Below, piece by piece: positions 2,642-16,407 of a stretch of 64,000 bases of DNA. The notes under the pieces are model-generated. The model saw only the letters and a list, made by a program, of their open reading frames with translations. It did no database searches and was not told the origin of the DNA. The translations under genes were made by a program, and so were the position numbers. The first letter of the stretch is position 1; each line of letters starts with the position of its first letter. Source of the stretch: an uncultured Dehalococcoidia bacterium (GTDB lineage Bacteria > Chloroflexota > Dehalococcoidia > Lucifugimonadales > UBA1123); contig OY282441.1 in the NCBI GenBank assembly GCA_958296105.1, forward strand, positions 310,001-374,000, written 5' to 3'.

Positions 2642-4171
2642 TCAGCGCAGGTTGTAGGCGTAGTGGCTCTCCCCGCATTCCAGCTCCCACTCCGCGAACC
2701 AGCGCTGTATATGCGGCAGCAGATCGGCGGACAGCCGCGCTCTGCTCGCCTCGCGCACGCTGATCTCGCCCAGCAGAGATTCCCTGAGCCTGCCGGCTAT
2801 CTCCGCTTTGTCCAGACTGACGAACTCCCCATCCCTCAGCAGAACTTCACCGTCGACCATGACCGTATCCACGTCGAGACCCTTCCCCCGATAGATCAGC
2901 GCGTCCACCACGTCCGTGTCCGGATGCAGATACGGCTCCTCGATCCTTTCCAGATCGAACAGCACCAGATCCGCGCGCCTGCCGGGTTCGATGACGCCCA
3001 CGTCATGGAACTGCGTCACCTTCGCCCCGCCCTCCGTGGTCAGCCGAAGTATGTCGTGAGAAGTGGGGTAGGGGGAGGATATGCCAGGCTCGCGGTGCAG
3101 CTTCTGGGCAATCCGCATCTCCTGAACGATGTCGTTGTCGTCGTTCATCCCCGCCTCGTCTATCCCAAGCGCAACCGTCACCCCGCCGTCCAGCAGGCGG
3201 TTGATCGGCGCGATGCCGCTCTTGAGTCTGAGATTCGAGCTGGGGTTGGTGCATATCGCCGTCTCGGTCTCGGCAAGCGCGCTCACGTCCGACTCGCTCA
3301 GCCACACCCCGTGAGCGCATGAAACCTCCGGCCCAGCCACGCCCAGATCCACGAGATGCGCCAGCGGAGTCTTCCCCCAGTGACGCGCGCCGTACATGCG
3401 CTGATAGACAGTCTCTTGCAGATGAATATGAAGACCCGTCCGATGGCGTTTGGCGAAGTCGCCAATCGCAGCCAGCATCTCGTCCGAACACCAGTGGACG
3501 TTGTGAGGGCTGACGAAGATGTTCGTTCTGGCAGCCTGCCGCCTCGAATGAAGCTCGCCGCACACCGACAGATACTCCTCCACCGTAATAGGCCGAGCGC
3601 CCAGATACTCGCTCGCCCGCCGCGCAAGCCCCCGCGGAAGAGTGGACAGAAAACGGGCATCGTCCTCGTATACCAAGTGGTTCTGATCTCTGGTGGAAAG
3701 CGAGAACGCGACCCTCATTCCGCTGTCCTCGTAAGCGTCGACTACCCGCGAAGCCGCCTCGTACATGACCTGATCCGGCGGCAGTCTGGCGGACATGTGG
3801 TTGTGCTGCACTGTGGTGATGCCCGACTCGATCATCTGCATCGCGCACCAGAGCGTATCCAGATAAGGGTCCACGTCGCGAATCGCCCATCTTGCGATGA
3901 TCCACGTCTCCAGAGGAGCGTCCAGCGCGCCAAGCTGAAACGGCGTCAGCCCCACGTGATGATGAGCGTTTATCAGCCCCGGCGTCACCAGATGCCGACC
4001 CGACCCGATCAGCTCGGCGGCGTGATATCGAGGACGCAGATCTTCGTACCTGCCAACCTCGACGATCTCCCCATCCGAGACGGCGACGGCGCCGTCATCG
4101 ACGATCTCCGCCGAGTCCCTCCCCGTAACCCTGCACACGACCTTTCGCCCTCTGACCAGCTTTGTCACCAT
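2642..4171 (-). CDS. Amidohydrolase (MTA/SAH deaminase - chlorohydrolase type)
   Basis: A metal-dependent hydrolase of the amidohydrolase superfamily, cytosolic, 509 residues. Visible metal-site motifs are NAHHH (H70/H72), a central HIHLQET, CAHGVWL and the GIDEAGMND aspartate region, in the order found in S-adenosylhomocysteine/5'-methylthioadenosine deaminases and atrazine-chlorohydrolase relatives. The exact substrate is not predictable. The ATG at 4171 is preferred because GGGGGAGG lies 5 nt upstream; the longer frame (to 4246) translates repeat DNA. It lies downstream of the M14 peptidase on the same strand, separated by a tandem repeat derived from that gene's 3' end, and its ribosome binding site lies in the last repeat copy. 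Confidence 0.9.
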   Translation of the reverse strand: MVTKLVRGRKVVCRVTGRDSAEIVDDGAVAVSDGEIVEVGRYEDLRPRYHAAELIGSGRHLVTPGLINAHHHVGLTPFQLGALDAPLETWIIARWAIRDVDPYLDTLWCAMQMIESGITTVQHNHMSARLPPDQVMYEAASRVVDAYEDSGMRVAFSLSTRDQNHLVYEDDARFLSTLPRGLARRASEYLGARPITVEEYLSVCGELHSRRQAARTNIFVSPHNVHWCSDEMLAAIGDFAKRHRTGLHIHLQETVYQRMYGARHWGKTPLAHLVDLGVAGPEVSCAHGVWLSESDVSALAETETAICTNPSSNLRLKSGIAPINRLLDGGVTVALGIDEAGMNDDNDIVQEMRIAQKLHREPGISSPYPTSHDILRLTTEGGAKVTQFHDVGVIEPGRRADLVLFDLERIEEPYLHPDTDVVDALIYRGKGLDVDTVMVDGEVLLRDGEFVSLDKAEIAGRLRESLLGEISVREASRARLSADLLPHIQRWFAEWELECGESHYAYNLR

Positions 4172-4570
4172 GATCACCTCCCCCGGTGATATACCAAGCG
4201 GTTCACTGAATCGAGCAGCAGCCCGTACACGCCATCCGCGCCGCACCGCGCCCCTCGGCTTGTGACCGTGTCGTCACCGTGACCGCCTCCCTCGGTTATA
4301 TACCGAGTGGCACACCGAGTCGAGCAGCAGCCCGTACACGCCATCCGCGCCGAGCCTCGCCCTTGGGCTTGTGACCAGCGTCGTCACCGTGACCGCCTCC
4401 CTCGGTTATATACCGAGTGGTACACCGAGTCGAGCAGCAGCCCGTACACGCCAGCCGCGCCGCGCGCCCTCTGCCCGGCGTCGTCACCGTGACCGCCTCC
4501 CTCGGTTATATACCGAGTGGTACACCGAGTTGAACAGCAGCTTGTACGTGCCGCGCGCCTGCGCCCTGAA
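4164..4570 (-). repeat. Four-unit tandem repeat derived from the 3' end of the M14 peptidase gene
   Basis: Units begin near 4164, 4273, 4383 and 4483, with periods of 109, 110 and 100 bp. The right-most unit is the real end of the peptidase reading frame (its last 20 or so codons, including Leu-Phe-Asn-Ser-Val-Tyr-His-Ser). The next two are close non-coding copies, and the left-most is diverged and contains the ribosome binding site and start of the amidohydrolase. The 312-bp gap between the two genes is therefore almost entirely repeat, and no other gene is seen in it. Confidence 0.85.
4177..4184 (-). promoter_or_regulatory. Strong ribosome binding site of the amidohydrolase
   Basis: Minus-strand GGGGGAGG followed by TGATC and ATG. 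This sets the start at 4171. The site lies inside the divergent left-most unit of the 4.16-4.57 kb tandem repeat; the other units carry the related GGGAGGCGGTCAC followed by a GTG. Confidence 0.75.
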
Positions 4571-6979
4571 GTGCGGTCTGAAGCCGAACAGTATCACCCT
4601 GCCCAGCCCGAGCGGAATCTCCGCCAGCGCAGCTAGTCCCGCTATCCTGTCCGCGCCGATGAGCCATCCGCTCAGGAGCGTATCCCGCTCGCGGAAGCGC
4701 GCGACCACGCTGCCCCTCTCCACCTCGTAGGCGGGGCCGTTCATAAACAGCGCGGCGCAAGCCTCCGGCATCCCGTAGCCAATCGGATGCCGCGTGTCTA
4801 TCGAGATGTCGAGCAGGCTTCCCGGCGCGAAGAACTCGGAGTGCGACAGCCGAGCCAGCGGGTTCTTCGCCGCAAGCTCCAGCCGCCAGACCAGAAAGCG
4901 CGCCGACTCGTCCCAGCCGATTATCGTCCCCCCGCGCTTGGCGAACTCCCTGAGACTCTCGACCCCGCGATCCCCGAGCCCTCCCGAGAAGCGCGATGAG
5001 TAGTGAGCGCGGCTGAAGCCCCGATGCAGCTGCCTGATCGTCTGGTGCGGCACTATCAGACAGTCGATGCGGCTGTCCAGATGCCCCTCCCTGATGTCTC
5101 CGTCCACCAGCGAGGCGTACTCGAAGCCGTAGTCGTCGAACACGAACCGCGTCCAGCCCTCCTCGATGCACGGCACATAGCTCGCATAGACGCCGATGCG
5201 AGGCGGCTGAAGCAGCTTCAGCGCCTCCTCCGGCCTGCGCCAGATCGGCTCCACGCTCACGCCCCGCTCCTCACCCGAAAGCGCCTCGCGCGTCTGCGCG
5301 GACGCGGGCGCAACCCACGTACCAGCCGGCAGGATGCCCGACTCCGCAGCGAAGGGCGCCGACGCCCTGAACACGGGGTGGCCCTCGAACAGCAGCCTGT
5401 TGACCACCCGCGCCGAGGCGTTCGACTCCGGCCTTATCCCGTAGGCGGGCGCGTCCACGTCCGCCAGACCGCGCCCAGACTTGCGGCGGCGCGGCTCGCT
5501 CAGCGCCTCCGACGTCTCGATCTCCAGCGCCTCCCCGATCTCGTGGCATCGAACGCCCATCTTCAGCGGCAGGCTGTGGGCTGTGGCGTCGTATGGACGC
5601 TTCGGAGGCCCGCCCGGATACTGGCGGATGTCCGGATACTGCCGCTTCTCCAGCATCGTCTGCGCGAACGCGCCGTATGGCTGCCGCGTAACCACCACGC
5701 GGTCGCCCTTGCGAATCACCAACCCGCCGCGCTCCACATGCTCCCGCGCCTCGCGCACCTCTACGCCTGCGAAGCTCAGCAGCTCCGCCAGCTCGTCCGC
5801 CGCGCTCGGATCGTGCTGATCCGCAGGTATCACGTAGCCGAACGGGTTGCCCTCCCGCTCGGTCGCCCGCCTGATCACGTCGTAGGAGTTCCTGACCCAC
5901 CACTCGCGGTTTCTGGCGGCGTGTTCCAAGCACGCCATGGACGCGGACATGTCGTACTCCACGATGTCCCTGAGCGTCCACTTTCCGCCCGTCCACGGCA
6001 GGGGATGGTTCCAAGACTTCGCGCTTGGACGCTCCCCCCTGTCGTCTTTCAGCCCCCTCCCGGAGACCTCGATAGGCGATGCGATCCGCGCGCTCGCCGC
6101 CTCCGAGAGCGCCCTGACCCCGCCGTGGTAGTGGGGATACGATCTGCTCGGACTGTACGAATCATAGACCACGTTGACAGCCACTCCGCCCTTTCCCTCC
6201 GCGGTCATCTGCGCCGCCATGTACGTTCCCAGCGCCGACAGCTCACTCTGAAGCACGGGATCCACGTTCGGGCCAACCGGATCCACCAGCGGCGGAAGTA
6301 TCATACGCATCCCGTCCGAGCGCGTCTGATGGATGTCGTAGGTGATGTGCGGTCGCCAAGCGTTGTGAACATGCTCCACCACCAGCCGCGTCTCCTGCTG
6401 AGTGAACATGAACCAGTCGCGGTTGTTATCGTGTCCCGTGTACTTGTGGTACAGGTAGGGCGGAATCGAACCCTCGAAGTGAGTCCCCAGCGATGCGCTG
6501 TACCAGTCCTTCACCCGCACCAGCCCATCCGGATTCAGGCTGGGAACCAGAAGCAGAAGCACGTTGTCCAGAATCGTCTTCACCCTGTCATCGGACGAGG
6601 ACGCGAGCAGATGAGCAAGCTCCAGCGACATCTGGCTGCCGCCCACCTCCGTGGCGTGGATGCTGCACGTGATCGCCACCACCGCGCGCGCTTCCCGCGC
6701 GTATCGAAGCGCGTCGGCCTCTCCGATAGTTCGCGGGTCTGCCAGAGACTGCTGTATCTCGCGCAGCCTGTCCAGCCGCTCCAAGTTGCGCGGCGAGCTG
6801 ATAACGCACAGGATGAACGGGTTGTCCTCCGTCGAGCGTCCTATCTCGCTCACCCGGACGCGGTCGCTCTGTCGGTCGAGCAGATCGAAATACTCCACCA
6901 TCTGCGCCCAGCCCGCCAGCTTGCGCTCCTCTCCTACCGCGAACCCGAGCAGCTCTTCCGGTGTGGTAACATTCTTCAT
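4484..6979 (-). CDS. M14-family zinc carboxypeptidase-like protein
   Basis: An 831-residue predicted metallopeptidase. An M14 zinc site is visible: H108-x-x-E111 in CSIHATEVGG, and a third ligand His217 in YDIHQTRSDG, with SLNPDGL and HDNNRDWF substrate-pocket segments between. The peptidase domain fills roughly residues 1-330; the remainder is a long C-terminal region of the kind seen in large bacterial M14 proteins. No signal peptide is evident, so location is uncertain. A GTG at 7003 extends the frame by eight codons, but ATG at 6979 (MKNVTTPEE) better matches the start of the folded domain; neither has a strong ribosome binding site. Its 3' end is tandemly repeated downstream. Confidence 0.88.
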   Translation of the reverse strand: MKNVTTPEELLGFAVGEERKLAGWAQMVEYFDLLDRQSDRVRVSEIGRSTEDNPFILCVISSPRNLERLDRLREIQQSLADPRTIGEADALRYAREARAVVAITCSIHATEVGGSQMSLELAHLLASSSDDRVKTILDNVLLLLVPSLNPDGLVRVKDWYSASLGTHFEGSIPPYLYHKYTGHDNNRDWFMFTQQETRLVVEHVHNAWRPHITYDIHQTRSDGMRMILPPLVDPVGPNVDPVLQSELSALGTYMAAQMTAEGKGGVAVNVVYDSYSPSRSYPHYHGGVRALSEAASARIASPIEVSGRGLKDDRGERPSAKSWNHPLPWTGGKWTLRDIVEYDMSASMACLEHAARNREWWVRNSYDVIRRATEREGNPFGYVIPADQHDPSAADELAELLSFAGVEVREAREHVERGGLVIRKGDRVVVTRQPYGAFAQTMLEKRQYPDIRQYPGGPPKRPYDATAHSLPLKMGVRCHEIGEALEIETSEALSEPRRRKSGRGLADVDAPAYGIRPESNASARVVNRLLFEGHPVFRASAPFAAESGILPAGTWVAPASAQTREALSGEERGVSVEPIWRRPEEALKLLQPPRIGVYASYVPCIEEGWTRFVFDDYGFEYASLVDGDIREGHLDSRIDCLIVPHQTIRQLHRGFSRAHYSSRFSGGLGDRGVESLREFAKRGGTIIGWDESARFLVWRLELAAKNPLARLSHSEFFAPGSLLDISIDTRHPIGYGMPEACAALFMNGPAYEVERGSVVARFRERDTLLSGWLIGADRIAGLAALAEIPLGLGRVILFGFRPHFRAQARGTYKLLFNSVYHSVYNRGRRSR

Positions 6980-7054
6980 TGGCAAAGAAGCGCGCCTGCC
7001 CACCGCGGGCTTTCAGATGTATCTAACCGAGAACCAAACATGAACCCCAGCCAT

Positions 7055-7165
7055 CGACCCCCTCTCCCTCTATGGGAGACTCAGCCATAACACCCTCTCT
7101 CCCTATGGGAGACGCAACTGGCAACCCCCTCTCCCTCGACGGGAGAGGGTTGGGGTGAGGGTGAT
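7055..7165. repeat. Cluster of CCCTCTCCC palindromic intergenic repeats
   Basis: Three successive units start with CCCCTCTCCCT or CCCTCTCTCCCT followed by ATGGGAGA or GACGGGAGAGGG. The last is complete: CCCTCTCCC, a short loop, GGGAGAGGG, then a TTGGGGTGAGGGTG tail. Same family as at 1297, 53.3 and 61.1 kb. It lies between the divergent M14 peptidase and PIG-L genes. Confidence 0.8.
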
Positions 7166-7218
7166 AAACAACCATCGCATCAGTTAGACAAATCTATCAC
7201 AGGAGCATCAGAAATAAC

Positions 7219-7917
7219 ATGACCGACGCCACCAACACGATACTGGTCGTTACACCACATCCAGACGACGCCGAAGGCGGCGCCGGCGGCACGATCGCCA
7301 AGTGGACGCGAGAGGGCAGGAGGGTCGTCTTGGTCGTCTGCACCAACGGCGACAAGGGCACCAGCGACCGCGCCCTCGCGCCCGCCAAGCTGGCAGAGAT
7401 CCGCGAGCGCGAGCAGCTCGCCGCCGCCGAGGTTCTGGGCATAGACGAGGTGGTGTTTCTGAGGTTCCCAGATCAGAACCTCGAAGACTCGCGCGAGTTC
7501 AGGCTGGCGCTCTCACGCCAGATCAGGAAGCACAGGCCCGATATCGTGGTAACCATAGACCCCAACAGGCCCTACATCAGGCACCGAGACCACTACATGA
7601 CCGGCAGGGTGACGCTGGACGCCGTGTTTCCATACGCCCGCGACCATCTCGCCTTTCCCGAGCTTATCGAGGAGGGCTTGGAGCCGTACAAAGTCCCCGA
7701 AGTCTGGCTGTTCAGGCCCGAAAGCGCGGACGTCCATATAGACATCACCGACACGTTCGATCTGAAGATGGATGCGCTGTTCCGTCACGCCAGCCAGATG
7801 TCCAGACCGAGGGAGACGAGCGAGGCGCGCTCCCGCGAGCGCGCCGCCGAGATAGGCAAGCACATAGGCGGAGGGCTGGCAGAGGGCTTCAAGCGAATAA
7901 CCCTCTTCAGAGGCTGA
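7219..7917 (+). CDS. PIG-L/LmbE family deacetylase
   Basis: A 232-residue zinc-dependent N-acetylglucosaminyl-type deacetylase. The family motif is present near the N-terminus (THPDDAE, with His14, Asp16 and Asp17), followed by GDKGT and the conserved HRDHYMTG histidine pair around residues 117-121. Relatives deacetylate GlcNAc-inositol conjugates in mycothiol or bacillithiol synthesis, or sugars on antibiotics; the substrate here cannot be assigned. The length matches the family. AGGAG lies 14 nt before ATG. The gene stands alone, convergent with the sigma factor gene. Confidence 0.92.
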   Translation: MTDATNTILVVTPHPDDAEGGAGGTIAKWTREGRRVVLVVCTNGDKGTSDRALAPAKLAEIREREQLAAAEVLGIDEVVFLRFPDQNLEDSREFRLALSRQIRKHRPDIVVTIDPNRPYIRHRDHYMTGRVTLDAVFPYARDHLAFPELIEEGLEPYKVPEVWLFRPESADVHIDITDTFDLKMDALFRHASQMSRPRETSEARSRERAAEIGKHIGGGLAEGFKRITLFRG

Positions 7918-7943
7918 CGCGCCAGCCAGCAGACAGCGCGCCG

Positions 7944-9368
7944 CTAACCAGACTCTACCTCTTCCAGCTGCGGCAGCTTGTCCGACCCCCTCAGCAGGCC
8001 CAGCGCCTGCTTCTCCAGCTGGCGCACCCGCTCGCGGGTGACTCCAAGCTCGCGCCCGACCTCTTCCAGCGTGCGCGGGCGGTCGTCTATGAACCCGAAT
8101 CGAAATGCCAGCACCATTCTGAGACGAGGGGGGATGTCATCCAGCGCCTCGATCACGTCTTCCCTCGTCAGCATCCGCATCGCCACCTCGTCGGGCGTCC
8201 ACGTGCTGGTATCTTGGATGAAGTCCTCAAGCGTAGACTCCTCCTCGCCCACCGGCGTTCCCAGAGAGATCGTGTGCTGGCGCTGTCTCATCAGCGTCTC
8301 CACCTGCTCGGGCGTCCACCCAAGCTCCTCCGCCAGCTCCTCCGGCGTCGGGTCGCGGTCCTTGTCTCGCATCAGATGGCGCTCCGCAGTGTTCAGCTGC
8401 TGTAGCCGCTCGACCACGTGGACGGGCAGCCTGATCGTCCGCCCCTGGTCTGCCAGCGCCCGCGTCACCGCCTGCCTGATCCACCACGTCGCATACGTGC
8501 TGAACTTGTAGCCGCGATGAGCGTCGTACTTCTCCACCGCGCGCATGAGTCCCAGGTTTCCCTCTTGAATCAGGTCCAGCAGCGGCAGCCCCCTTCGCAG
8601 GTAGCGCCGCGCCACGCTCACCACCAGCCTGAGATTCGAGCTGGTGAGCCGCTCGGATGCCGCCTTGCCTCGCGCCGTGAGGATCTTCCACCAGCGCTCG
8701 ATCCGCCACCGCTCCCCGTCGATCGCAGCCGCTATCGTGGCAGTCTCCAGATCGTCGAAGTAGAGCTGAGCCCCCAGCTCGCGCTCGGCGCGTCTGAAAA
8801 CCTCCACCGGCACCAGCACCGAGGCGCGCGACAGCGCGGTGATCATACGCCCCGTATCCTCTATCTCCACGTCGAGCGCGTCCGCCACCTTCTCCTTGAG
8901 CGAGTCGGGGGGCGGGCTGTCCAGAAGCAGCCGCACCTGCTCATCCGCCAGCAGCACGCTCACCGGAGCTTCCAGCGGCAGCTCCAAGTCAGACTCAGAC
9001 GCCACCGTTCTCAGCAGCGCCATGTCTCGGATGGTAGCCAGCAGGAACACCGCCGCCATCTCGATGGAGTCGGGATCTCGCCCCGTCTCCTCGTTCAGCT
9101 GCTTGCGGGTCTCCTTGAGCAGCATCCACCGCTCCACGTCGCGCCCCAGGTCCAGCTCTTCGGGCGCAGTCAGCAGCGCGTGCTGTCCGATGGACCTCAG
9201 ATACTCCCTTACCGTATCCGTCGGCTCGTCCCTGATCTCGCGCTCGTATGCCAGCATCAGCTCGTTCGAGCGCTCACCCGCCGTGCGCCGTGCGGATCGC
9301 CGCTCGCTGAACGAATCGCCTTCTATGTCGACTTCCTGATTGTTGAGAAAATTTCCTCGTTGGGTCAT
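7944..9368 (-). CDS. RNA polymerase sigma-70 family factor, RpoD-like
   Basis: A 474-residue sigma factor directing RNA polymerase to promoters. Region 1.2 (TDTVREYLRSIGQHALL, with the following Glu/Asp-rich helix) begins near residue 50. Region 2 carries NLRLVVSVARRYLRRG, LLDLIQEGNLGLMRAVEK and the region 2.3-2.4 core YKFSTYATWWIRQAVTRA. Region 3 has DRDPTPEELAEELG, and region 4 ends with the helix-turn-helix TRERVRQLEKQALGLLR. Region 1.1 is short, and a spacer of about 190 residues of unknown fold separates regions 1.2 and 2.1. This is a group 1 or 2 factor; whether it is the only primary sigma cannot be judged from this window. AAGGGG precedes the ATG at 9368. Confidence 0.93.
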   Translation of the reverse strand: MTQRGNFLNNQEVDIEGDSFSERRSARRTAGERSNELMLAYEREIRDEPTDTVREYLRSIGQHALLTAPEELDLGRDVERWMLLKETRKQLNEETGRDPDSIEMAAVFLLATIRDMALLRTVASESDLELPLEAPVSVLLADEQVRLLLDSPPPDSLKEKVADALDVEIEDTGRMITALSRASVLVPVEVFRRAERELGAQLYFDDLETATIAAAIDGERWRIERWWKILTARGKAASERLTSSNLRLVVSVARRYLRRGLPLLDLIQEGNLGLMRAVEKYDAHRGYKFSTYATWWIRQAVTRALADQGRTIRLPVHVVERLQQLNTAERHLMRDKDRDPTPEELAEELGWTPEQVETLMRQRQHTISLGTPVGEEESTLEDFIQDTSTWTPDEVAMRMLTREDVIEALDDIPPRLRMVLAFRFGFIDDRPRTLEEVGRELGVTRERVRQLEKQALGLLRGSDKLPQLEEVESG

Positions 9369-9760
9369 CGTACCCCTTCGACTGATCGAGAATAGGTGTC
9401 AAACAATATCAGACACCCCTCCGCCTTACAACCGCGTTCACCATTTATATATACGTGTCAACCCCTTTTGCGTATTCAATTCCCCGCTTCGACAGTCGAA
9501 CCCGAGTCCAAGCCAATCGCCGCCAGCGTACAGCCTCCACCCGATGAGGACGAAAGCCACGCTTGCTTCACTGCCCCAAGCCCCAATCGCCGCCAGCAGC
9601 CCCTATCCCAGGACGCCCCAGACAGTATGAGGCCGGAGCGCGGGGTATCATCCCGCCTCGACCCTCTTTCCCTCACTCCCCATCTCTTATATCATGCCAT
9701 GAAATCGTCCGCCGCGCTTGCCCAAATCGTCCGCGCGTCAGGATGGGAGGCCTTTTCAAG
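9369..9760. other. Intergenic region between divergent sigma factor and epimerase genes
   Basis: A 392-bp gap without a convincing gene. It contains a 6-bp inverted repeat GGTGTC...GACACC at 9395-9417 close to the sigma factor start, and an AT-rich patch at 9441-9470. TTGACA occurs on the minus strand at 9456-9461, but no -10 lies at the right distance, so no promoter is called. The short open frames here have no recognisable features. GGGAGG at 9745-9750 serves the epimerase start. Confidence 0.5.
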
Positions 9761-10525
9761 ATGAACAAACGAGTGCTGATAACCGGAATGAGCGGGCTGA
9801 TAGGCGGCTTGCTCAAAGACCACCTGCTGGAAGCCGGCGGTTACGACCTCACCGCGCTGAACCGCCGACCCGTGGAGGGCGTCCCCACCGTTCAGGCAGA
9901 CATCGCAGACATAGACGCCATACGCCCCGCCTTCGAGAACCAAGACGTCGTCGTTCACCTCGCCGCCTACCTCGGCGCGCAGGACTGGGAGGGACAGCAC
10001 GCCGGAAACGTCCTCGGCGCCTACAACGTGTTCGAGGCGTCGCGAGAAGCCGGAGTCGGGCGCGTCATATTCGCGTCCAGCGGCAACGCCATCAGAGGAT
10101 TCGAGCGCATCCCCCCGTACTCCGACATCGCCGCCGGCAGCTACGACAGGGTCCCGTCCGACTTCCGCAGACTCACCCATGAGGATGTCCGCCCCGAGGC
10201 GCTGTACGGAGCGGCAAAGGTCTGGGGAGAGGCGCTGGCGCGCCACTTCTCGGACGACTACGACATGAGCATGATCTGCGTCCGCATCGGCTCGGTCACA
10301 CAGGGCAACCGCCCCAGAACCACGCGCGAAAACGCCATCTACCTCAGCCACCGCGACGTTGCGACCCACCTGAAGGCTTGCATAGACGCCCCGGACGATC
10401 TCAGATTCGGCATCTTCTTCGCCGTCTCCAACAACAGATGGAACTACCGAGACCTCTCACACTCCAGAGACGTACTCGGCTGGCAGCCGCAGGACACCGC
10501 AGACGACAAGATGTTCAGCGGCTAG
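9761..10525 (+). CDS. NAD(P)-dependent epimerase/dehydratase family protein
   Basis: An extended short-chain dehydrogenase of 254 residues. The Rossmann motif TGMSGLIG (residues 8-15) binds NAD(P), HLAAYLG is the family's second motif, and catalytic YxxxK is Y149-G-A-A-K153. Size and C-terminal region resemble small sugar-nucleotide or uronate dehydrogenase-like members rather than 320-residue epimerases. The ATG at 9761 is chosen because GGGAGG lies 10 nt upstream and the beta-strand of the Rossmann fold begins immediately; an upstream ATG at 9743 adds six residues and overlaps the ribosome binding site. The following formamidase, 137 bp away on the same strand, may share its transcript. Confidence 0.88.
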   Translation: MNKRVLITGMSGLIGGLLKDHLLEAGGYDLTALNRRPVEGVPTVQADIADIDAIRPAFENQDVVVHLAAYLGAQDWEGQHAGNVLGAYNVFEASREAGVGRVIFASSGNAIRGFERIPPYSDIAAGSYDRVPSDFRRLTHEDVRPEALYGAAKVWGEALARHFSDDYDMSMICVRIGSVTQGNRPRTTRENAIYLSHRDVATHLKACIDAPDDLRFGIFFAVSNNRWNYRDLSHSRDVLGWQPQDTADDKMFSG

Positions 10526-10662
10526 TGGCTGCTGATTGGGCAGCTGGCGACAGACGCCGGCATCCACATGACTAGACCGTTCGCACCGAGCTTGCGGAGC
10601 GACAGACGCCGCTCACGAGCCACCAGCCACCGACCGCAGCTTGCCGCTCACCGAGAGATCCC

Positions 10663-11772
10663 ATGACCCAGTTCATAAGAATAGACCGCTCCAAGAGGCT
10701 CCGAGACCAGCCCGACACAGGCCATAACCGCTGGCACCCGGACGTTCCGCCCATCCTGGAAGTTGGCGAGAACGAGAACATCGTCATCGAAACCCGCGAC
10801 GCCAGCGACGGACAGATGACCCCGAACACCACTGTGGCAGACTTCGACCACATGGACCAGAAGGTCGCCCACCCACTCACCGGGCCGATCTACGTCCAGG
10901 GAGCGATGCCCGGCGACCTGCTCGAAATCGAGTACGTGGACATCTTCCCCCAGCCATACGGCTGGACGCGCTTCAGGCCCGGCGCCGGATTCCTGAGAGA
11001 CATCTTCACCGAACCCTTCATCGCCCACTGGGATATCGAACATGGCTATGCCACGTCCGCCCACATCCCCGGCGTCCGCATCCCGGACGGCTCGTTCATG
11101 GGCACCGCCGGCCTCGCCCCGTCCAGAGAGCAGCTCGAAGCGTGGACCAGAAGAGAGCAGGATCTGCTCGAAAGGGGCGGCATCGTGCAGCCGCCCGACA
11201 TTCAAGACGCCGTCCCCGCAGGCCGAATAGGGGAGGAGGGCTTGCGAACCGGCCCCCCGCGAGAGAACGCCGGCAACATGGACGTCAAGCAGCTCACGCG
11301 AGGATCCAAGCTGTTCATACCCGTGGCCGTCGAGGGCGCGCTGTTCTCAGTCGGAGACGGACACTTCGCCCAGGGCGATGGCGAAGTCTGCGTAACCGCC
11401 ATCGAGATGGGCGCTACGGTGTCCGTCCGCTTCACCGTCCACGCCGGCGAGGCAGAGAGAAAGGGCATCCGCGCGCCGCGCTTCTCCCATCCCGGCCACT
11501 TCCTGCCGCCTGCGTCCGCCATCCCCGCGAACTTCATCGCCACCGTCGGCTACCCCATCCGCGAAGACGGCGCGCAGGAGGGCGAGGACGTCACCCTAGC
11601 CGCGCGCCGCGCCCTGCTCGAGATGATCCAGCTCCTCGGCGAGCGTGGTTTCAGCCCAGAGCAGGCATACGCCATCTGCTCCGTCGCCGTGGACCTGCGC
11701 ATCAGCAACATAGTAGACCTGCCCAACGTAACCGTCTCCGCCTTCCTGCCCGAGAACATCTTCGCGGAGTGA
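10663..11772 (+). CDS. Acetamidase/formamidase family protein
   Basis: A 369-residue member of the FmdA/AmdA family, which hydrolyses formamide or short amides to ammonia and the acid. The family layout is visible: the N-terminal RWHPDVPPILEVG, then PNTTVADFDHMDQKVAHPLTGP, PGDLLEIEYVDI, the central GNMDVKQLTRGSKLFIPV and GDGHFAQGDGEV, and the C-terminal helical pair ending DLPNVTVSAFLP. Length is slightly below typical (about 400). The ATG at 10663 has only a weak GAGAG ribosome binding site. Such amidases often supply nitrogen. The FmdB-type zinc ribbon sometimes found with formamidases is instead at 31 kb. Confidence 0.9.
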   Translation: MTQFIRIDRSKRLRDQPDTGHNRWHPDVPPILEVGENENIVIETRDASDGQMTPNTTVADFDHMDQKVAHPLTGPIYVQGAMPGDLLEIEYVDIFPQPYGWTRFRPGAGFLRDIFTEPFIAHWDIEHGYATSAHIPGVRIPDGSFMGTAGLAPSREQLEAWTRREQDLLERGGIVQPPDIQDAVPAGRIGEEGLRTGPPRENAGNMDVKQLTRGSKLFIPVAVEGALFSVGDGHFAQGDGEVCVTAIEMGATVSVRFTVHAGEAERKGIRAPRFSHPGHFLPPASAIPANFIATVGYPIREDGAQEGEDVTLAARRALLEMIQLLGERGFSPEQAYAICSVAVDLRISNIVDLPNVTVSAFLPENIFAE

Positions 11773-11790
11773 GTTCTGTCACAACGAGGA

Positions 11791-11819
11791 TTGCCATTCG
11801 CGCCAATCGAATGGATAAT
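11791..11819 (+). promoter_or_regulatory. Predicted sigma-70 promoter of the DUF4365 pair
   Basis: TTGCCA (11791-11796), a 17-bp spacer and GATAAT (11814-11819), 50 bp before the proposed start of the DUF4365 gene. It lies just past the stop of the formamidase gene, so the pair can be expressed independently. Confidence 0.55.
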
Positions 11820-11868
11820 ACCCCATACAGCAAGAGACTAGGAGCGTGGCAGCCGAAGGAGATAGACA

Positions 11869-12435
11869 CTGGCGCCGAGTGGTGATGCCCTTCTTACCGA
11901 CAACAATCGTAAGGCGGAGTTGTCTTTCGCTTACCTGTCCGCCATATCCGCCGTTGCTGGATACACCTGCCAGCGGGGACCCGAACCGGATGTCGACAGC
12001 ATAGACGCTTTTGTCAGAGCCGGGGGACCTATGCGACCTCAAATCGACTTCCAGCTAAAAGCCACTTCCTCGCCGGTTCTGATATCGGATAGCCTTCACT
12101 TCCGCTTGAGCAAAAAGAACTACAACGACCTTGCGGATCCGCGAATGGTTCCGGCTGTTCTTGCGGTTCTCGAACTTCCCAAAGACCCTGATGAATGGCT
12201 GCGCTGTGACGCGGATAGTCTGATTTTGCGCCGTCGCTTCTGGTGGATGTCGCTCGAAGGAAGACCAGAGATATCCGCCGGCACTAAAACCGTTATATTG
12301 CCGCCATCGAGTCTTCTGAGAAAGCGCTCATCTCATGCGTGCGCGAGCGAAGCCTCTCATCGAGGAATCCACAGCCATGAACAGAAATCTCGAATACAAA
12401 ATCGAGCGCGATACCCTGTCCAGAATCCCCCCTAG
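11869..12435 (+). CDS. DUF4365 domain protein (predicted PD-(D/E)XK-like nuclease)
   Basis: About 188 residues. It shows the DUF4365 pattern: an initial helix (KAELSFAYLSAISAVAGY), Asp in DSIDAFV, and the strand RPQIDFQLKATSS, then KNYNDL and a conserved W...LRRRFWWMSL tract. Together the Glu, Asp and D-x-Q-x-K positions resemble a restriction-endonuclease fold core; this is an inference. No ATG, GTG or TTG exists before the first helix, but CTG at 11869 has AAGGAG seven nt upstream. The TTG at 11920 would cut the helix. The last 45 codons look unlike the family and overlap the next gene. In the -1 frame, the sequence after 12306 continues with acceptable codons to a TGA at 12378-12380, overlapping the next ATG, so a late frameshift is possible. 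Confidence 0.7.
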   Translation: MAPSGDALLTDNNRKAELSFAYLSAISAVAGYTCQRGPEPDVDSIDAFVRAGGPMRPQIDFQLKATSSPVLISDSLHFRLSKKNYNDLADPRMVPAVLAVLELPKDPDEWLRCDADSLILRRRFWWMSLEGRPEISAGTKTVILPPSSLLRKRSSHACASEASHRGIHSHEQKSRIQNRARYPVQNPP

Positions 12436-13261
12436 AGCATTGCGCGCATACATAGAAGCGCGCGGGTGGCGCAAGGCTGGAACCTACCCGGGATTGGCGG
12501 ACGTCTACGAATTCGACGAAGATGGCCCCGGAATCAGAGTGGCGGCATCTATACACTTCGCGGATTACCCTCTCAGAATGTGGGAAGCGGTTTCCGCCCT
12601 TGCCGATACCGAAGATCGGGAGTGGAGCGCGGTTTTGCGCGACCTCGCCCTTGGCGACCTCGACACGATCCGAGTTCGCTGGTCAGGCGACTCGAACGAC
12701 GGCTCCATCCCCATAGGCGCGGGCATGGAGATGCTCCGACATTCACACTACATGCTGTTGACGGCGGCATGTTCGGCCCAGCGTCCCCACCAGCGCGTAT
12801 TCAGACCCCGTGCCAACAAAAAGGCGAAGGAATATGTGAAGAACGTCCGGCTTGGCCAAACTGAGCGCGGCAGTTTTGTCATACATATCTTGTCACCCGT
12901 TCACACCGAGCCTGAACATCTACATGCCGCTAATCCGGGGGCCGAGCCTTTTCCTCGAAAGGTGGTTAACAAGCTGGCTTCGGGTCTAGGGGTTATTCAC
13001 GAGGTTGCGCGACTCGTAGCAACCCGAGATTACCGATCCGAAATGCTCGAAGAGTGGGTAGCCCAGGGCATGAGCGCCAATCTGTGCGCCGCTGTCGGCG
13101 GGATGCTGGGCAACGGCAGCCAGAGCGGGCTGGATATCTCCGTCAGCTGGGCGCTTACCCACGTGCCGCCATCCCGCGAACCATCCGAGGTCCATTTCCG
13201 CGAATCGGATGCTCCCATACTCGAAGAGGCGTCCCAGGTTCTGAAAAGAACTGGTGGATAG
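12377..13261 (+). CDS. Uncharacterised protein paired with DUF4365
   Basis: A 294-residue protein without a domain I can name. Visible conservation-like features are an N-terminal RALRAYIEARGWRKAGTY helix-turn, a FADYPLRMWEAVSALAD helix, and later SFVIHILSPV and PFPRKVVNKLASGLG blocks. This layout recalls a widespread family of bacterial hypothetical proteins, but I cannot attach a function. There is no signal peptide or membrane segment. ATG 12377 (MNRNLEYKIER) is preferred to ATG 12335 because GAGGAA lies upstream and the intact end of the DUF4365 gene would overlap it as ATGA. Co-transcription with DUF4365 is likely. Confidence 0.65.
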   Translation: MNRNLEYKIERDTLSRIPPRALRAYIEARGWRKAGTYPGLADVYEFDEDGPGIRVAASIHFADYPLRMWEAVSALADTEDREWSAVLRDLALGDLDTIRVRWSGDSNDGSIPIGAGMEMLRHSHYMLLTAACSAQRPHQRVFRPRANKKAKEYVKNVRLGQTERGSFVIHILSPVHTEPEHLHAANPGAEPFPRKVVNKLASGLGVIHEVARLVATRDYRSEMLEEWVAQGMSANLCAAVGGMLGNGSQSGLDISVSWALTHVPPSREPSEVHFRESDAPILEEASQVLKRTGG

Positions 13262-13298
13262 TGGATTTGGCGAACGCACTAGGTGATCTGCCCTGCGC

Positions 13299-14297
13299 CT
13301 AAGCCAAGTCCCCCTCCCGATCCAGCGCGAACTTGCCCCAGTACGGCGCGCGCAGCCACTCCAGCGCCTCGCGCCGCGCTTGGCGCACTGCATCATCCCA
13401 GCGCGCAACCTCATTCGCGGCATTCGCATAGGCGAGGAAATCCGCCCTGAAATCCGAGATATCCACGTACCCCCGTCGCCCGATTCGGTCGAGTATGGCA
13501 GCCGCCGCCTCGCGCTGGCGTCCGTCGGCATGTGCGCCGAACTCATCGGACAGCGCCCGCGCCCTGCGCTCTATCCTGCCCGAAAGCGGCGTCTCCCTGA
13601 TAGCCGTGTATCTCGAAGCCGCCGTCGGCGTGGGATGCGGCGTGGTGTACGACGCGAAGAACTCCAGAAGAGCGTCGTTCACGTCCACCCCCTCGCGTCG
13701 GCGCGTCGCCATACGGGGTTCTACCAGATTGCCGAGATCTATCACCGTCGTCTTCGCGCTGTCGGGCGCGTAGAACACGTTGCGCGCCCCCAGGTCGCGC
13801 GCAACGTACCCGCGCTCCGCGCATCGCTCGATCACGTCCAGAACCTCCATCGCCGGAGACCGTCCCCGCGCGCGCGGCGGCGGATGCAGCGCGAACAGGT
13901 TCATCGGCAGCGCCACCGGATGCCCCCTGACCTGATCCGCCACACTCCCGATCAGCGGCACGCCCCGGGCGCGCTCCTCCACCAAGACGGTGTACGGACA
14001 CCCTGGATCGTCTCCGAAGAGCTGGGCGAACCTATCCGGCCCGACCACCGTCACCAGACGCGGCAGCGCGCCCACGTCCCCCATGTCCCATCGCAGCCTC
14101 GCCTGCGCTCGCATCCGCCGCTCCACGTCGTCATGCAGGTCTCTGGACACGAGCGACGGGTGCGGCCTCTTGACGACCACCGTCCCCCCGCTGTGAAGGT
14201 CTTTGGCGAGAAACGCCTGAAGATCAGCGCCCTCGCCCACTATTTCGCCCAGCCTGAAGCGGTCGAAACTCGACGGCTCCGTTAGCCGCAAATCCAT
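13299..14297 (-). CDS. Protein kinase-like protein
   Basis: About 332 residues with the remnants of a kinase fold: a Gly-rich start (LGEIVGEGADLQAFLA), VVVK as the candidate ATP-anchoring lysine, YVARDLGARNV in place of the HRDxxxxN catalytic loop, and VIDLGN in place of DFG. The catalytic Asp, the Asn and the metal-binding Asp are thus all present, but the loop His is Ala. It could be an active atypical kinase, a small-molecule phosphotransferase or a pseudokinase. ATG 14297 is chosen with GAGGG and GGAG just upstream; longer starts reach into the promoter region of the divergent plsY-like gene. Convergent with the accessory pair, 37 bp away. Confidence 0.65.
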   Translation of the reverse strand: MDLRLTEPSSFDRFRLGEIVGEGADLQAFLAKDLHSGGTVVVKRPHPSLVSRDLHDDVERRMRAQARLRWDMGDVGALPRLVTVVGPDRFAQLFGDDPGCPYTVLVEERARGVPLIGSVADQVRGHPVALPMNLFALHPPPRARGRSPAMEVLDVIERCAERGYVARDLGARNVFYAPDSAKTTVIDLGNLVEPRMATRRREGVDVNDALLEFFASYTTPHPTPTAASRYTAIRETPLSGRIERRARALSDEFGAHADGRQREAAAAILDRIGRRGYVDISDFRADFLAYANAANEVARWDDAVRQARREALEWLRAPYWGKFALDREGDLA

Positions 14298-14368
14298 ATC
14301 CCTCATACTCCGAATGGGTCGAGAGCGCGAGCGTCTCACCCCTACAGGCTTACCCACCTTCGGCGGGC

Positions 14369-14397
14369 GTGTCAAGCGCGGCGTCAAGTGTTACAAT
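14369..14397 (+). promoter_or_regulatory. Possible promoter of the plsY-like gene
   Basis: GTGTCA (14369-14374), 17 bp, TACAAT (14392-14397), about 45 bp before the ATG. The -10 is good and the -35 weak. Confidence 0.4.
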
Positions 14398-14442
14398 GCC
14401 AGTGATCACCCCAAGCGGAGGGCTTGGAACAGGCGGAGCGTG

Positions 14443-15081
14443 ATGATAGGAACAGGTATCCCCGACATTTCGAGCTTGCTGCTCGCTACTACCATTGCGT
14501 ACATAATCGGAGCGCTGCCGCTCGCCGACCGCCTCAGCCGTCGAAGGGGAATCGACATCTTCAAGGCAGGCACCGGACTCGCCGGCGCATCCAACGTCCT
14601 TCGCAACGTGGGCAAGATTCCCGCCATGCTGGTATTCATCGGCGACATGGCAAAGGGGATCGTCACCGTATTCATCGCCCAGCAGCTTCTGGGCGTCGAA
14701 GGCCCCTGGATCGTGGTTCCCGCCGCCGCCGCCGTCATCGGACATTGGAACTCGATCTTCAGCCGATTCAAGGGCGGCGACGGCTTGGTGGTGCTGGGCG
14801 GAGTAACGCTGCTGGCATTCCCGGACTACGCCATCGGCTTCACCGGAGTAGCGGTCGCCTCGATAGTCGCCCTTGTCGCTCAGAAGATGCCTTACAGCTC
14901 TCTGATGAACATTCTGATTGGATACACCGTCATAATCGCGCTGTCCGCCCGCTTCTCTCCCGAAGACCTCAACAGCGCGCTCGCGCTCGGAGGCCTCGCG
15001 GTCATCGTCTTCGGCCACGCCATACTTGGACACGCGCGCAGGCGCAGGTCGGAAGTCGCCGCAGACCTCGCGAGCAGATAG
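14443..15081 (+). CDS. plsY: PlsY-type glycerol-3-phosphate acyltransferase homologue
   Basis: A membrane protein of 212 residues in the PlsY family, which transfers acyl groups from acyl phosphate to glycerol-3-phosphate in phospholipid synthesis. Five hydrophobic segments are visible. Motif 1 appears as DIFKAGTGLAGASNVLRNVG and motif 2 as GHWNSIFSRFKGGDG. The usual GSGNxGATN is altered (GTGLAGASN) and the nucleotide-like loop GGKG is GGDG, so activity or substrate may differ; the symbol marks the family only. GGAG precedes the start by 4 nt, and GTG 14440 just before the ATG is an alternative. Confidence 0.8.
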   Translation: MIGTGIPDISSLLLATTIAYIIGALPLADRLSRRRGIDIFKAGTGLAGASNVLRNVGKIPAMLVFIGDMAKGIVTVFIAQQLLGVEGPWIVVPAAAAVIGHWNSIFSRFKGGDGLVVLGGVTLLAFPDYAIGFTGVAVASIVALVAQKMPYSSLMNILIGYTVIIALSARFSPEDLNSALALGGLAVIVFGHAILGHARRRRSEVAADLASR

Positions 15082-15150
15082 AGAGTCTGCCAAGACAGCC
15101 GCTCCTTCCCTGACAGTGGGGCAGGGGACAGCGCGAATTCCGAGTCGGCT

Positions 15151-15834
15151 TCACCTCGGCCCCAGCGCCTCCTCCACGTCCACGCCAACCCTGTCGAGCA
15201 GCTCCAGCGGAGACGAATCCAGCAACGCCTTCGCCTCTTCCACGTCCAGCCCGGAGCCAAGAGCCACCTTCATGGCGAACTCCCGCGTCAGCAGATCCGA
15301 AGGCGCGTGCGCGTCCGAGTCCAGCACCATCCGCGCGCCGGCGGCCTTCGCCGTCCGAACCACGTGGCCGTTCGCCATGCCGTGACCCCTCCGCCCCGAC
15401 ACCTCCAGGAACACCCCGTTGGCAGCCGCGATCCGCGCCTCCTCCGGCGTGATCAGGCCCGGATGCGCGAGTATGTCGACAGCCCCGCTCGTCACCGCCG
15501 CCCGATTCGTCCCCTCGACCACAGGCTCCGTGATCGTCTCCCCGTGAACGTTGACGACCTTCGCCCCGAGTCTGCGACACTCGCGCGCAAGTCGGTCTAT
15601 GTCCTCGCTCGGCGTATGCGTGATCTCGACCCCAGGCAGCGCCAGTATGTCCCAGCGCTCGCTGGCCATTGCGCAGTCAGCTATCAGCGTCTTCAGCACG
15701 AACTCCATATTGCCCGGGCCTACGTGATCGGTAATCGCCATCACGCGATATCCCGCGTGAATCGCGCGCCTTATCAGCTCTATGGGCGACAGCTCCCCGT
15801 CGCTCAGAAACGTGTGTGTGTGAAAGTCGAACAC
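15151..15834 (-). CDS. PHP-domain phosphoesterase
   Basis: A 227-residue polymerase/histidinol-phosphatase family metal hydrolase. The first motif FDFHTHTFLSDGE sits at the N-terminus, followed by AITDHVG, LPGVEITH, an HPG segment (DILAHPGLIT) and the terminal DSDAHAPSDL, together giving the three-metal PHP site. Members include histidinol phosphatase and nucleoside-phosphate phosphatases; the substrate is unknown. It starts with GTG at 15834, using a GGAGG that lies within the end of the upstream TPP-enzyme gene, 6 bp away, which implies translational coupling in one operon with it. Confidence 0.9.
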   Translation of the reverse strand: MFDFHTHTFLSDGELSPIELIRRAIHAGYRVMAITDHVGPGNMEFVLKTLIADCAMASERWDILALPGVEITHTPSEDIDRLARECRRLGAKVVNVHGETITEPVVEGTNRAAVTSGAVDILAHPGLITPEEARIAAANGVFLEVSGRRGHGMANGHVVRTAKAAGARMVLDSDAHAPSDLLTREFAMKVALGSGLDVEEAKALLDSSPLELLDRVGVDVEEALGPR

Positions 15835-15840
15835 GATCCG

Positions 15841-16407
15841 TTACGCCTCCCGCAGATTCTCTGCCAGCCGCCTCATCTCCGGCCCAGTCTTGCCCATGTA
15901 GAACGGGGGTGGATCGGGCGGGTGGCTCACCTTCAGGCACACGAACACAGGCCCCCGCTGAGCCATGATATCGGGCAGCTCGCTCACCATGTCTTCGAGA
16001 TCGGAGAACTCGTAGGACGCCGCGAACCCTGCGTCCCTTGCCATCGCCGCCAGATCCACCTTGCCCGCGCCGGGGATCGGCTGTGCGCCTGTGGTGAAGT
16101 AAGCCCCGTCCTCGAAGACGAAGTGCGTCAGATTCGCGGCAGCCGTCGCGCCGATGGTCACCAGCGAGCCGAGATTCATCAGCAGCGAGCCGTCCCCGTC
16201 CAGGCAGATCACCCTCCTGTCCGGCTTCGAAAGCGCGATGCCAAGCGCGACTGACGACGCCTTGCCCATCCCGCCGAATATCGGCAGGTCGAGGTCGCGC
16301 CTGTCCGACACCGCCTCCCAGTACCGGTTTGGGGTCATCGTCCCCACCACCACCGCGTCCCCGCGCACGTCGCTGATTGCCTTCGCCGCATCGAGTGAAG
16401 AGATCAT
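15841..16407 (-). CDS. Thiamine-diphosphate-dependent decarboxylase, beta-type subunit
   Basis: A 188-residue protein equal to the C-terminal TPP-binding half of a 2-oxoacid decarboxylase, like the beta subunit of sulfopyruvate or phosphonopyruvate decarboxylase. The TPP/Mg motif is GDGSLLMN around residues 70-77, with GGMGKASSVALGIAL before it and a HFVFEDGAYFTTG loop after. These enzymes need an alpha subunit carrying the activating glutamate, but no such gene adjoins it in this window. GGAG lies 5 nt before the ATG. It is the upstream partner of the PHP gene and lies downstream of ubiX on the same strand (about 100 bp). Confidence 0.8.
   Translation of the reverse strand: MISSLDAAKAISDVRGDAVVVGTMTPNRYWEAVSDRRDLDLPIFGGMGKASSVALGIALSKPDRRVICLDGDGSLLMNLGSLVTIGATAAANLTHFVFEDGAYFTTGAQPIPGAGKVDLAAMARDAGFAASYEFSDLEDMVSELPDIMAQRGPVFVCLKVSHPPDPPPFYMGKTGPEMRRLAENLREA

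Follow-up and report, generated by a model that had tools for sequence, protein, structure and literature searches.

The window analysed here is a stretch of 64,000 nucleotides from an uncultured Dehalococcoidia bacterium, positions 310001–374000 of a single 3.18-Mb contig. Two overlapping genes, A followed by B, lie in it, flanked by a gene of the formamidase family and one for a kinase-like protein. The original prediction described them as a compact, promoter-led unit of a nuclease-like gene and an uncharacterised partner. What does this pair encode, how did it reach this site, and is it still in working order? The features of the locus are as follows.

10663–11772, + strand: left flank, acetamidase/formamidase family gene (PF03069, 5.1e-111)
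11773–13298: inserted segment, from the formamidase-family stop (11770–11772) to the convergent kinase-like stop (13299–13301)
11791–11819, + strand: promoter-like TTGCCA-17-GATAAT (10/12 matches; chance level, unproven)
11855–11861, + strand: Shine-Dalgarno-like GAAGGAG, read from the sequence, 7 nt upstream of CTG 11869
11869–12435, + strand: A, DUF4365/PDC-M02A nuclease-type ORF, counted from the CTG (core 11887–12315 conserved)
12004–12060, + strand: predicted catalytic residues of A (D46 at 12004–12006; D60, Q62 and K64 at 12046–12060)
12313–12380, + strand: apparent frameshift region of A, from a shuffle comparison of the tails of two frames
12377–13261, + strand: B, PDC-M02B partner, 294 codons (coding 12377–13258; profile positions 6–289 of 380)
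13259–13261, + strand: stop codon of B, at the boundary to the OB-fold of the family
13299–14387, − strand: right flank, kinase-like gene (NF038150 at 2.2e-11, far under its cut-off)

Family membership and predicted folds

Window A matched the Pfam family PF14280 (DUF4365) at 44.9 bits (cut-off 24.3), and the DUF4365 gene is followed by a 294-residue partner, as predicted. Window B had no match in Pfam or NCBIfam. The PADLOC models assigned A to PDC-M02A (PDLC04278; E 1.8e-40, profile positions 3–152 of 167) and B to PDC-M02B (PDLC04298; E 1.3e-78), and the partner thought to be of unknown family thus has a name. The PDC-M02B-type gene is located directly downstream of the PDC-M02A-type gene on the same strand, the gene order of PDC-M02 itself. 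Since both proteins match, the pair has already been catalogued by PADLOC and is, by these profile matches, a copy of its defence candidate PDC-M02. It differs from the catalogued form in that window B spans only positions 6–289 of the 380 in its profile and the 3′ end of window A is altered. PDC names denote PADLOC defence candidates, which a 2026 paper (PMC12988326) describes as products of 'guilt-by-embedding' and as unvalidated in most cases. A literature search found no published test of PDC-M02, so a defence role is read from its setting only. The PDC-M02 models do not name any domains; the division of B into HicA-like, middle and OB parts comes from the present analysis.

The predicted promoter sequence is present upstream of A, but one such match was counted in 3 kb, where 0.6 ± 0.7 would arise by chance. 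Because this count is no higher than chance, the promoter is unproven, and we rejected it as supporting evidence.

The fold of A was assessed on the model of an intact homologue (L019 A, pLDDT 72). Its best PDB match was the DREN of SPARDA (Foldseek 7.8e-5; Z 12.8, 3.1 Å over 135 residues), followed by archaeal Hjc Holliday-junction resolvases (Z 9.7); the comparison with PD-(D/E)XK folds proposed earlier thus favours a nuclease. A sequence search of solved structures with A gave no match. The predicted D-x-Q-x-K motif and acidic position were confirmed: window A retains D46, D60, Q62 and K64 (counted from CTG 11869) of the pattern D..(D/E)xQxK, and QxK was kept in 23/23 A proteins. By modelled fold and residues, A is a predicted PD-(D/E)XK/DREN nuclease.

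DREN is given as an alternative name of DUF4365 in PMC12205087. For a DUF4365-APAZ nuclease, PMC10810196 describes Q62A/K64A as an inactive mutant, and the intact DUF4365-APAZ/Argonaute complex as degrading DNA nonspecifically after target recognition. A shares the nuclease fold and the Q..K residues with SPARDA, but it is a protein of its own, and its partner is unrelated. No match to APAZ or a short Argonaute was found in A or B (Pfam, NCBIfam, PADLOC) or in the two flanking proteins (Pfam, NCBIfam). Should A cut DNA and be restrained by B, the pair would represent a second way of controlling a DREN nuclease besides the APAZ/Argonaute arrangement.

The model of L019 B (pLDDT 79) showed three parts: an N-terminal HicA-like domain, a middle domain (about residues 90–285) and a C-terminal OB-fold. 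The HicA-like domain (residues 7–89) matched 1whz, which we take to be HicA, at Z 8.1 with all 70 residues aligned. It also matched 5yrz (Z 7.3, rmsd 1.7) and 6g26 (Foldseek probability 0.99). The OB-fold (residues 286–375) best matched SilF (Z 9.8), with PriB, SSB and RPA also listed. The OB region of B aligned with that of DnaE-like polymerases at 2e-4 to 6e-4, and hhalign of the OB region against DnaE gave a probability of only 9.6. Foldseek of B against the PDB returned no match at E ≤ 0.001, hhalign of B against one annotated HicA returned nothing, and Pfam on 10 B proteins returned nothing convincing, HicA included. A solved-structure sequence search with B reached ribosomal S17 at E 0.39, a chance-level match that was discarded. 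The OB and HicA-like assignments, made on the model, are therefore of moderate strength.

B residues 7–89 share the fold of HicA toxins, but they lack a Pfam sequence match to them. The HicA catalytic histidine is absent from window B, and in an alignment read by eye it occurs among the other B proteins in one clade only. HicA generally stands alone, whereas the HicA-like part is the first domain of the larger protein B. A HicB partner is not present; the partner of B is the DUF4365 protein.

The remaining parts of B vary among loci. The OB-fold is kept in 25/27 full-type B proteins; besides window B, the B proteins of L024 and L064 lack it, and it was treated as usual but not defining. Short B proteins of 175–181 residues, in which the N-domain is joined directly to the OB-fold, were found at L062, L063, L066, L078 and L079, and this form occurs on Nostoc, Tolypothrix and Calothrix plasmids. 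The B of L064 (Azospirillum) consists of the N-domain and another tail. PADLOC models recognised 3/3 short forms tried (L062, L064, L078). Since the short and other-tailed forms keep the N-domain, it is the constant part of B beside the nuclease in the loci read, and it may be the part that binds A. With a known nuclease fold, a constant candidate docking domain and naturally occurring small forms (about 170 + 180 residues), the widespread candidate PDC-M02 becomes testable.

On the cyanobacterial plasmids L062, L066 and L078, the short pair comes after a gene of ParA type and a single small gene, always in this order. This gene order may point to plasmid maintenance.

Insertion and damage of the window copy

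The flanking genes, formamidase-family (+) and kinase-like (−), are mutually convergent. The site is empty in 4/4 checkable genomes of the family (those whose fetched stretch includes both flanks; three belong to the same genus): the two genes are only 33–51 bp apart there, versus 1,526 bp here. Three further stretches (L052–L054) showed no kinase-like match. The 7 remaining family genomes lack B. The GC content of the pair is 57% versus 63% for the window, and third-position GC is 0.57 in A and 0.64 in B versus 0.75–0.84 in the nearest neighbouring genes. We think it rather probable, as part of the overall explanation given below, that the pair was horizontally acquired and came to lie between these convergent genes by insertion. 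The isolated position among housekeeping genes, noted in the original prediction, belongs to this insertion and not to the PDC-M02 family.

The kinase-like gene weakly resembles the kinase portion of LanL and has no Pfam match. It adjoins the formamidase gene in four relatives.

The reading frame of window A contains no ATG, GTG or TTG start before 11920, a position inside the conserved N-terminus. Its start is likely CTG 11869, seven bases after GGAG. At the other end, the tail of A after about 12315 has no homology to the family, and the ORF extends 59 bases into B versus an overlap of 1–4 bases in 22/25 loci. The frame that ends at TGA 12378–12380 (ATGA with the start of B) moderately resembles the family C-terminal tail. 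Its tail score was reached by 19/500 shuffles, and that of the open frame by 305/500. The 3′ end of window A thus appears to be frameshifted, a reading with moderate support. It is possible that the frameshift is an assembly error; the long frames listed for the window gave no sign of a general frame disorder.

Window B contains the HicA-like domain and the middle domain and ends at profile position 288–289 of 380, where the OB-fold begins. No OB remnant was found in the six frames of 11501–16000. Departures at conserved sites numbered 3/21 in A and 2/21 in B, and unusual erosion of conserved residues was not seen. Because the conserved residues are otherwise kept, either the damage is recent or the window copy is an unusual working form. 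We favour damage, and the copy is most likely decaying. The original prediction had missed this damage.

That the window pair still works is a doubtful alternative. In such a pair the CTG would serve as start, the altered tail of A would be tolerated, B would be a natural OB-less form, and the middle domain would sense. The good Shine-Dalgarno spacing before the CTG and the retained family-conserved and catalytic residues agree with this, as does L064, where an OB-less B stands beside an open A. Against it speak the three lesions together, the loss of a fold kept in 25/27 full-type B proteins, and a non-homologous A tail that overlaps B by 59 bases, unlike in 22/25 loci. An ordinary family member that is probably decaying accounts better for the window copy.

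Pairing, second copy and possible working of the family

Co-occurrence was scanned with profiles of A and B in 400 genomes of the phylum. Strong B matches (E ≤ 1.3e-45) were found in 9/400 genomes, strong A matches (E ≤ 6e-25) fell in the same 9, and no strong match of either protein stood alone. The co-occurrence that the original prediction proposed to check is thus strong. We set aside three weak matches of the B profile (2e-4 to 6e-4), which lie inside DnaE-like polymerases (named by eye), and one weak A-profile match at 6.4e-4 in genome G232.

A set of 33 distinct loci was assembled from B matches (27 plus L061–L066); near-identical or duplicate matches (H7, H10, H16, H18 and others) were left out. 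A lies upstream of B in 31 of the 33 (25/27 and 6/6). The two loci without A carry, as read by eye, an HsdS-like fragment (L020) or a transposase fragment (L027) instead. Among plasmid records found through A, 25/25 carry B; 23 of these are also in the B match lists, and the two others have a short B. The two genes overlap by 1–4 bases in 22/25 two-gene loci, mostly as ATGA, GTGA or TGATG (eye count). The exceptions are the window, L003 and L036.

A is broken in two of the 31 loci with A upstream (L023 and L063). Frame changes or stops interrupt it at 9564–9998 in L023 and at about 3500–4000 in L063, and B stays open. The idea that A is the costly partner, drawn from these broken genes, was dropped because most loci had been found through B.

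PDC-M02 records come from Chloroflexota, Nitrospirota, Acidobacteriota, Rhodothermota, Pseudomonadota, Actinomycetota, Spirochaetota, Bacillota, Bdellovibrionota and Cyanobacteriota, and from temperate phages. The pair is carried by a Mycobacterium abscessus prophage (L037, 398–2157) and by Leptospira phage LE1 (L061, 2432–4110). An LE1 protein matched the B model over its full length (2.8e-21, TM 0.65), and an LE1 gene belonging to the family has its own A upstream. A scan of viral contigs with B confirmed 0/92 stretches.

The same genome carries an intact, divergent second copy (L003) at 1.23 Mb, 0.9 Mb from the window, with full-length A and B between hsdS and hsdR. Its place is given below in coordinates of the fetched stretch.

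3384–15783 (about 1.231–1.244 Mb of its own genome): L003 type I restriction operon

Besides HsdM, HsdS and HsdR, this operon encodes A, B and a dense set of other defence candidates: a protein with a partial match to PD-Lambda-2_B, a TIR-like protein, PDC-M24A and PDC-M24B. A Polbeta nucleotidyltransferase domain is part of HsdS, and the stop of B shares bases with the start of hsdR. A defence module within a type I restriction operon has been described for DarTG2 with RptR in E. coli (PMC12255303). The second copy resembles such modules in lying between hsdS and hsdR with PDC-M24, whereas the window copy is not embedded and has formamidase and kinase-like flanks. The second copy was also considered as a recent duplicate. 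This was rejected: identity between the two B proteins is 29%, and they sit on separate deep branches of the B tree, but the support of the forks (88/85 and 94/89) does not reach the starred level and L003 is a long branch. Genes for hsd functions were near 3/26 PDC-M02 loci scanned (L003, and L019 and L020 with the same kind of embedding, A being absent in L020). Probes found none in the other 23/26, in part of which the flanks are short, and several other loci adjoin ordinary genes.

The best explanation of the family is a nuclease that comes with a modular regulator and serves either to attack foreign DNA or as an addiction pair. We consider it fairly probable, with some reserve, that the window holds a horizontally acquired and now decaying PDC-M02 copy and that the intact family consists of nuclease A and modular regulator B. 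A and B would be translated together through their overlapping ends and would form a complex. In a healthy cell the complex would be quiet, with B restraining A and the constant HicA-like domain probably docking on A. The middle domain and the OB-fold, which may bind nucleic acid, would be exchangeable sensing parts. This sensor would recognise an abnormal nucleic acid that stems from an invader or from restriction that has failed. A would then be released and cut DNA, and the invader or the cell would be killed. For the two-gene defence or toxin system suggested originally, the nuclease fold and the conserved pairing, either of which might have refuted it, speak in favour, but PADLOC already lists the pair, the promoter does not exceed chance and the copy is damaged.

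A toxin-antitoxin or plasmid-stabilising pair, with A as nuclease toxin and B as antitoxin through its HicA-like domain, is possible but finds us sceptical. Two small overlapping genes that are frequent on plasmids and temperate phages, and that, in their short form, directly follow a ParA-type gene plus a single small gene on cyanobacterial plasmids, would suit such a pair. The location of the second copy and of L019 inside type I restriction operons does not suit it, nor does the missing HicA histidine outside one clade, and B, with three parts, 380 residues and an OB-fold, makes a large antitoxin.

It is unlikely that the pair is an accessory restriction factor, in which A and B would act with HsdR or other nucleases on DNA already cut or unwound. 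The shared bases of B and hsdR in L003 and the HsdS-like fragment directly upstream of B in L020 (read by eye) fit this role, and an OB-fold would suit single-stranded DNA. Most loci, however, have no hsd genes nearby, and phages and plasmids carry the pair without them.

We further speculate, as a quite improbable extension, that PDC-M02 is a nuclease-release switch. The HicA-like N-domain would be a universal holder of DUF4365 and the rest of B an exchangeable trigger. In hsd operons the switch would be coupled translationally to hsdR and, as a second line, fire when restriction fails, and the window copy would be live without an OB trigger. A chance association of a stray DUF4365 gene with an unrelated orphan, to which the housekeeping flanks and the low-GC island might point, is refuted by the co-occurrence in 9/9 strong-match genomes and the conserved 1–4 base overlaps, and has next to no probability left.

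In three genomes of genus g139 the pair is adjoined by AAA_5 (L055, L056) or VWA_CoxE (L057). In L058 and L060, a gene for a 1483-residue helicase with partial DpdJ similarity is located directly upstream of the pair.
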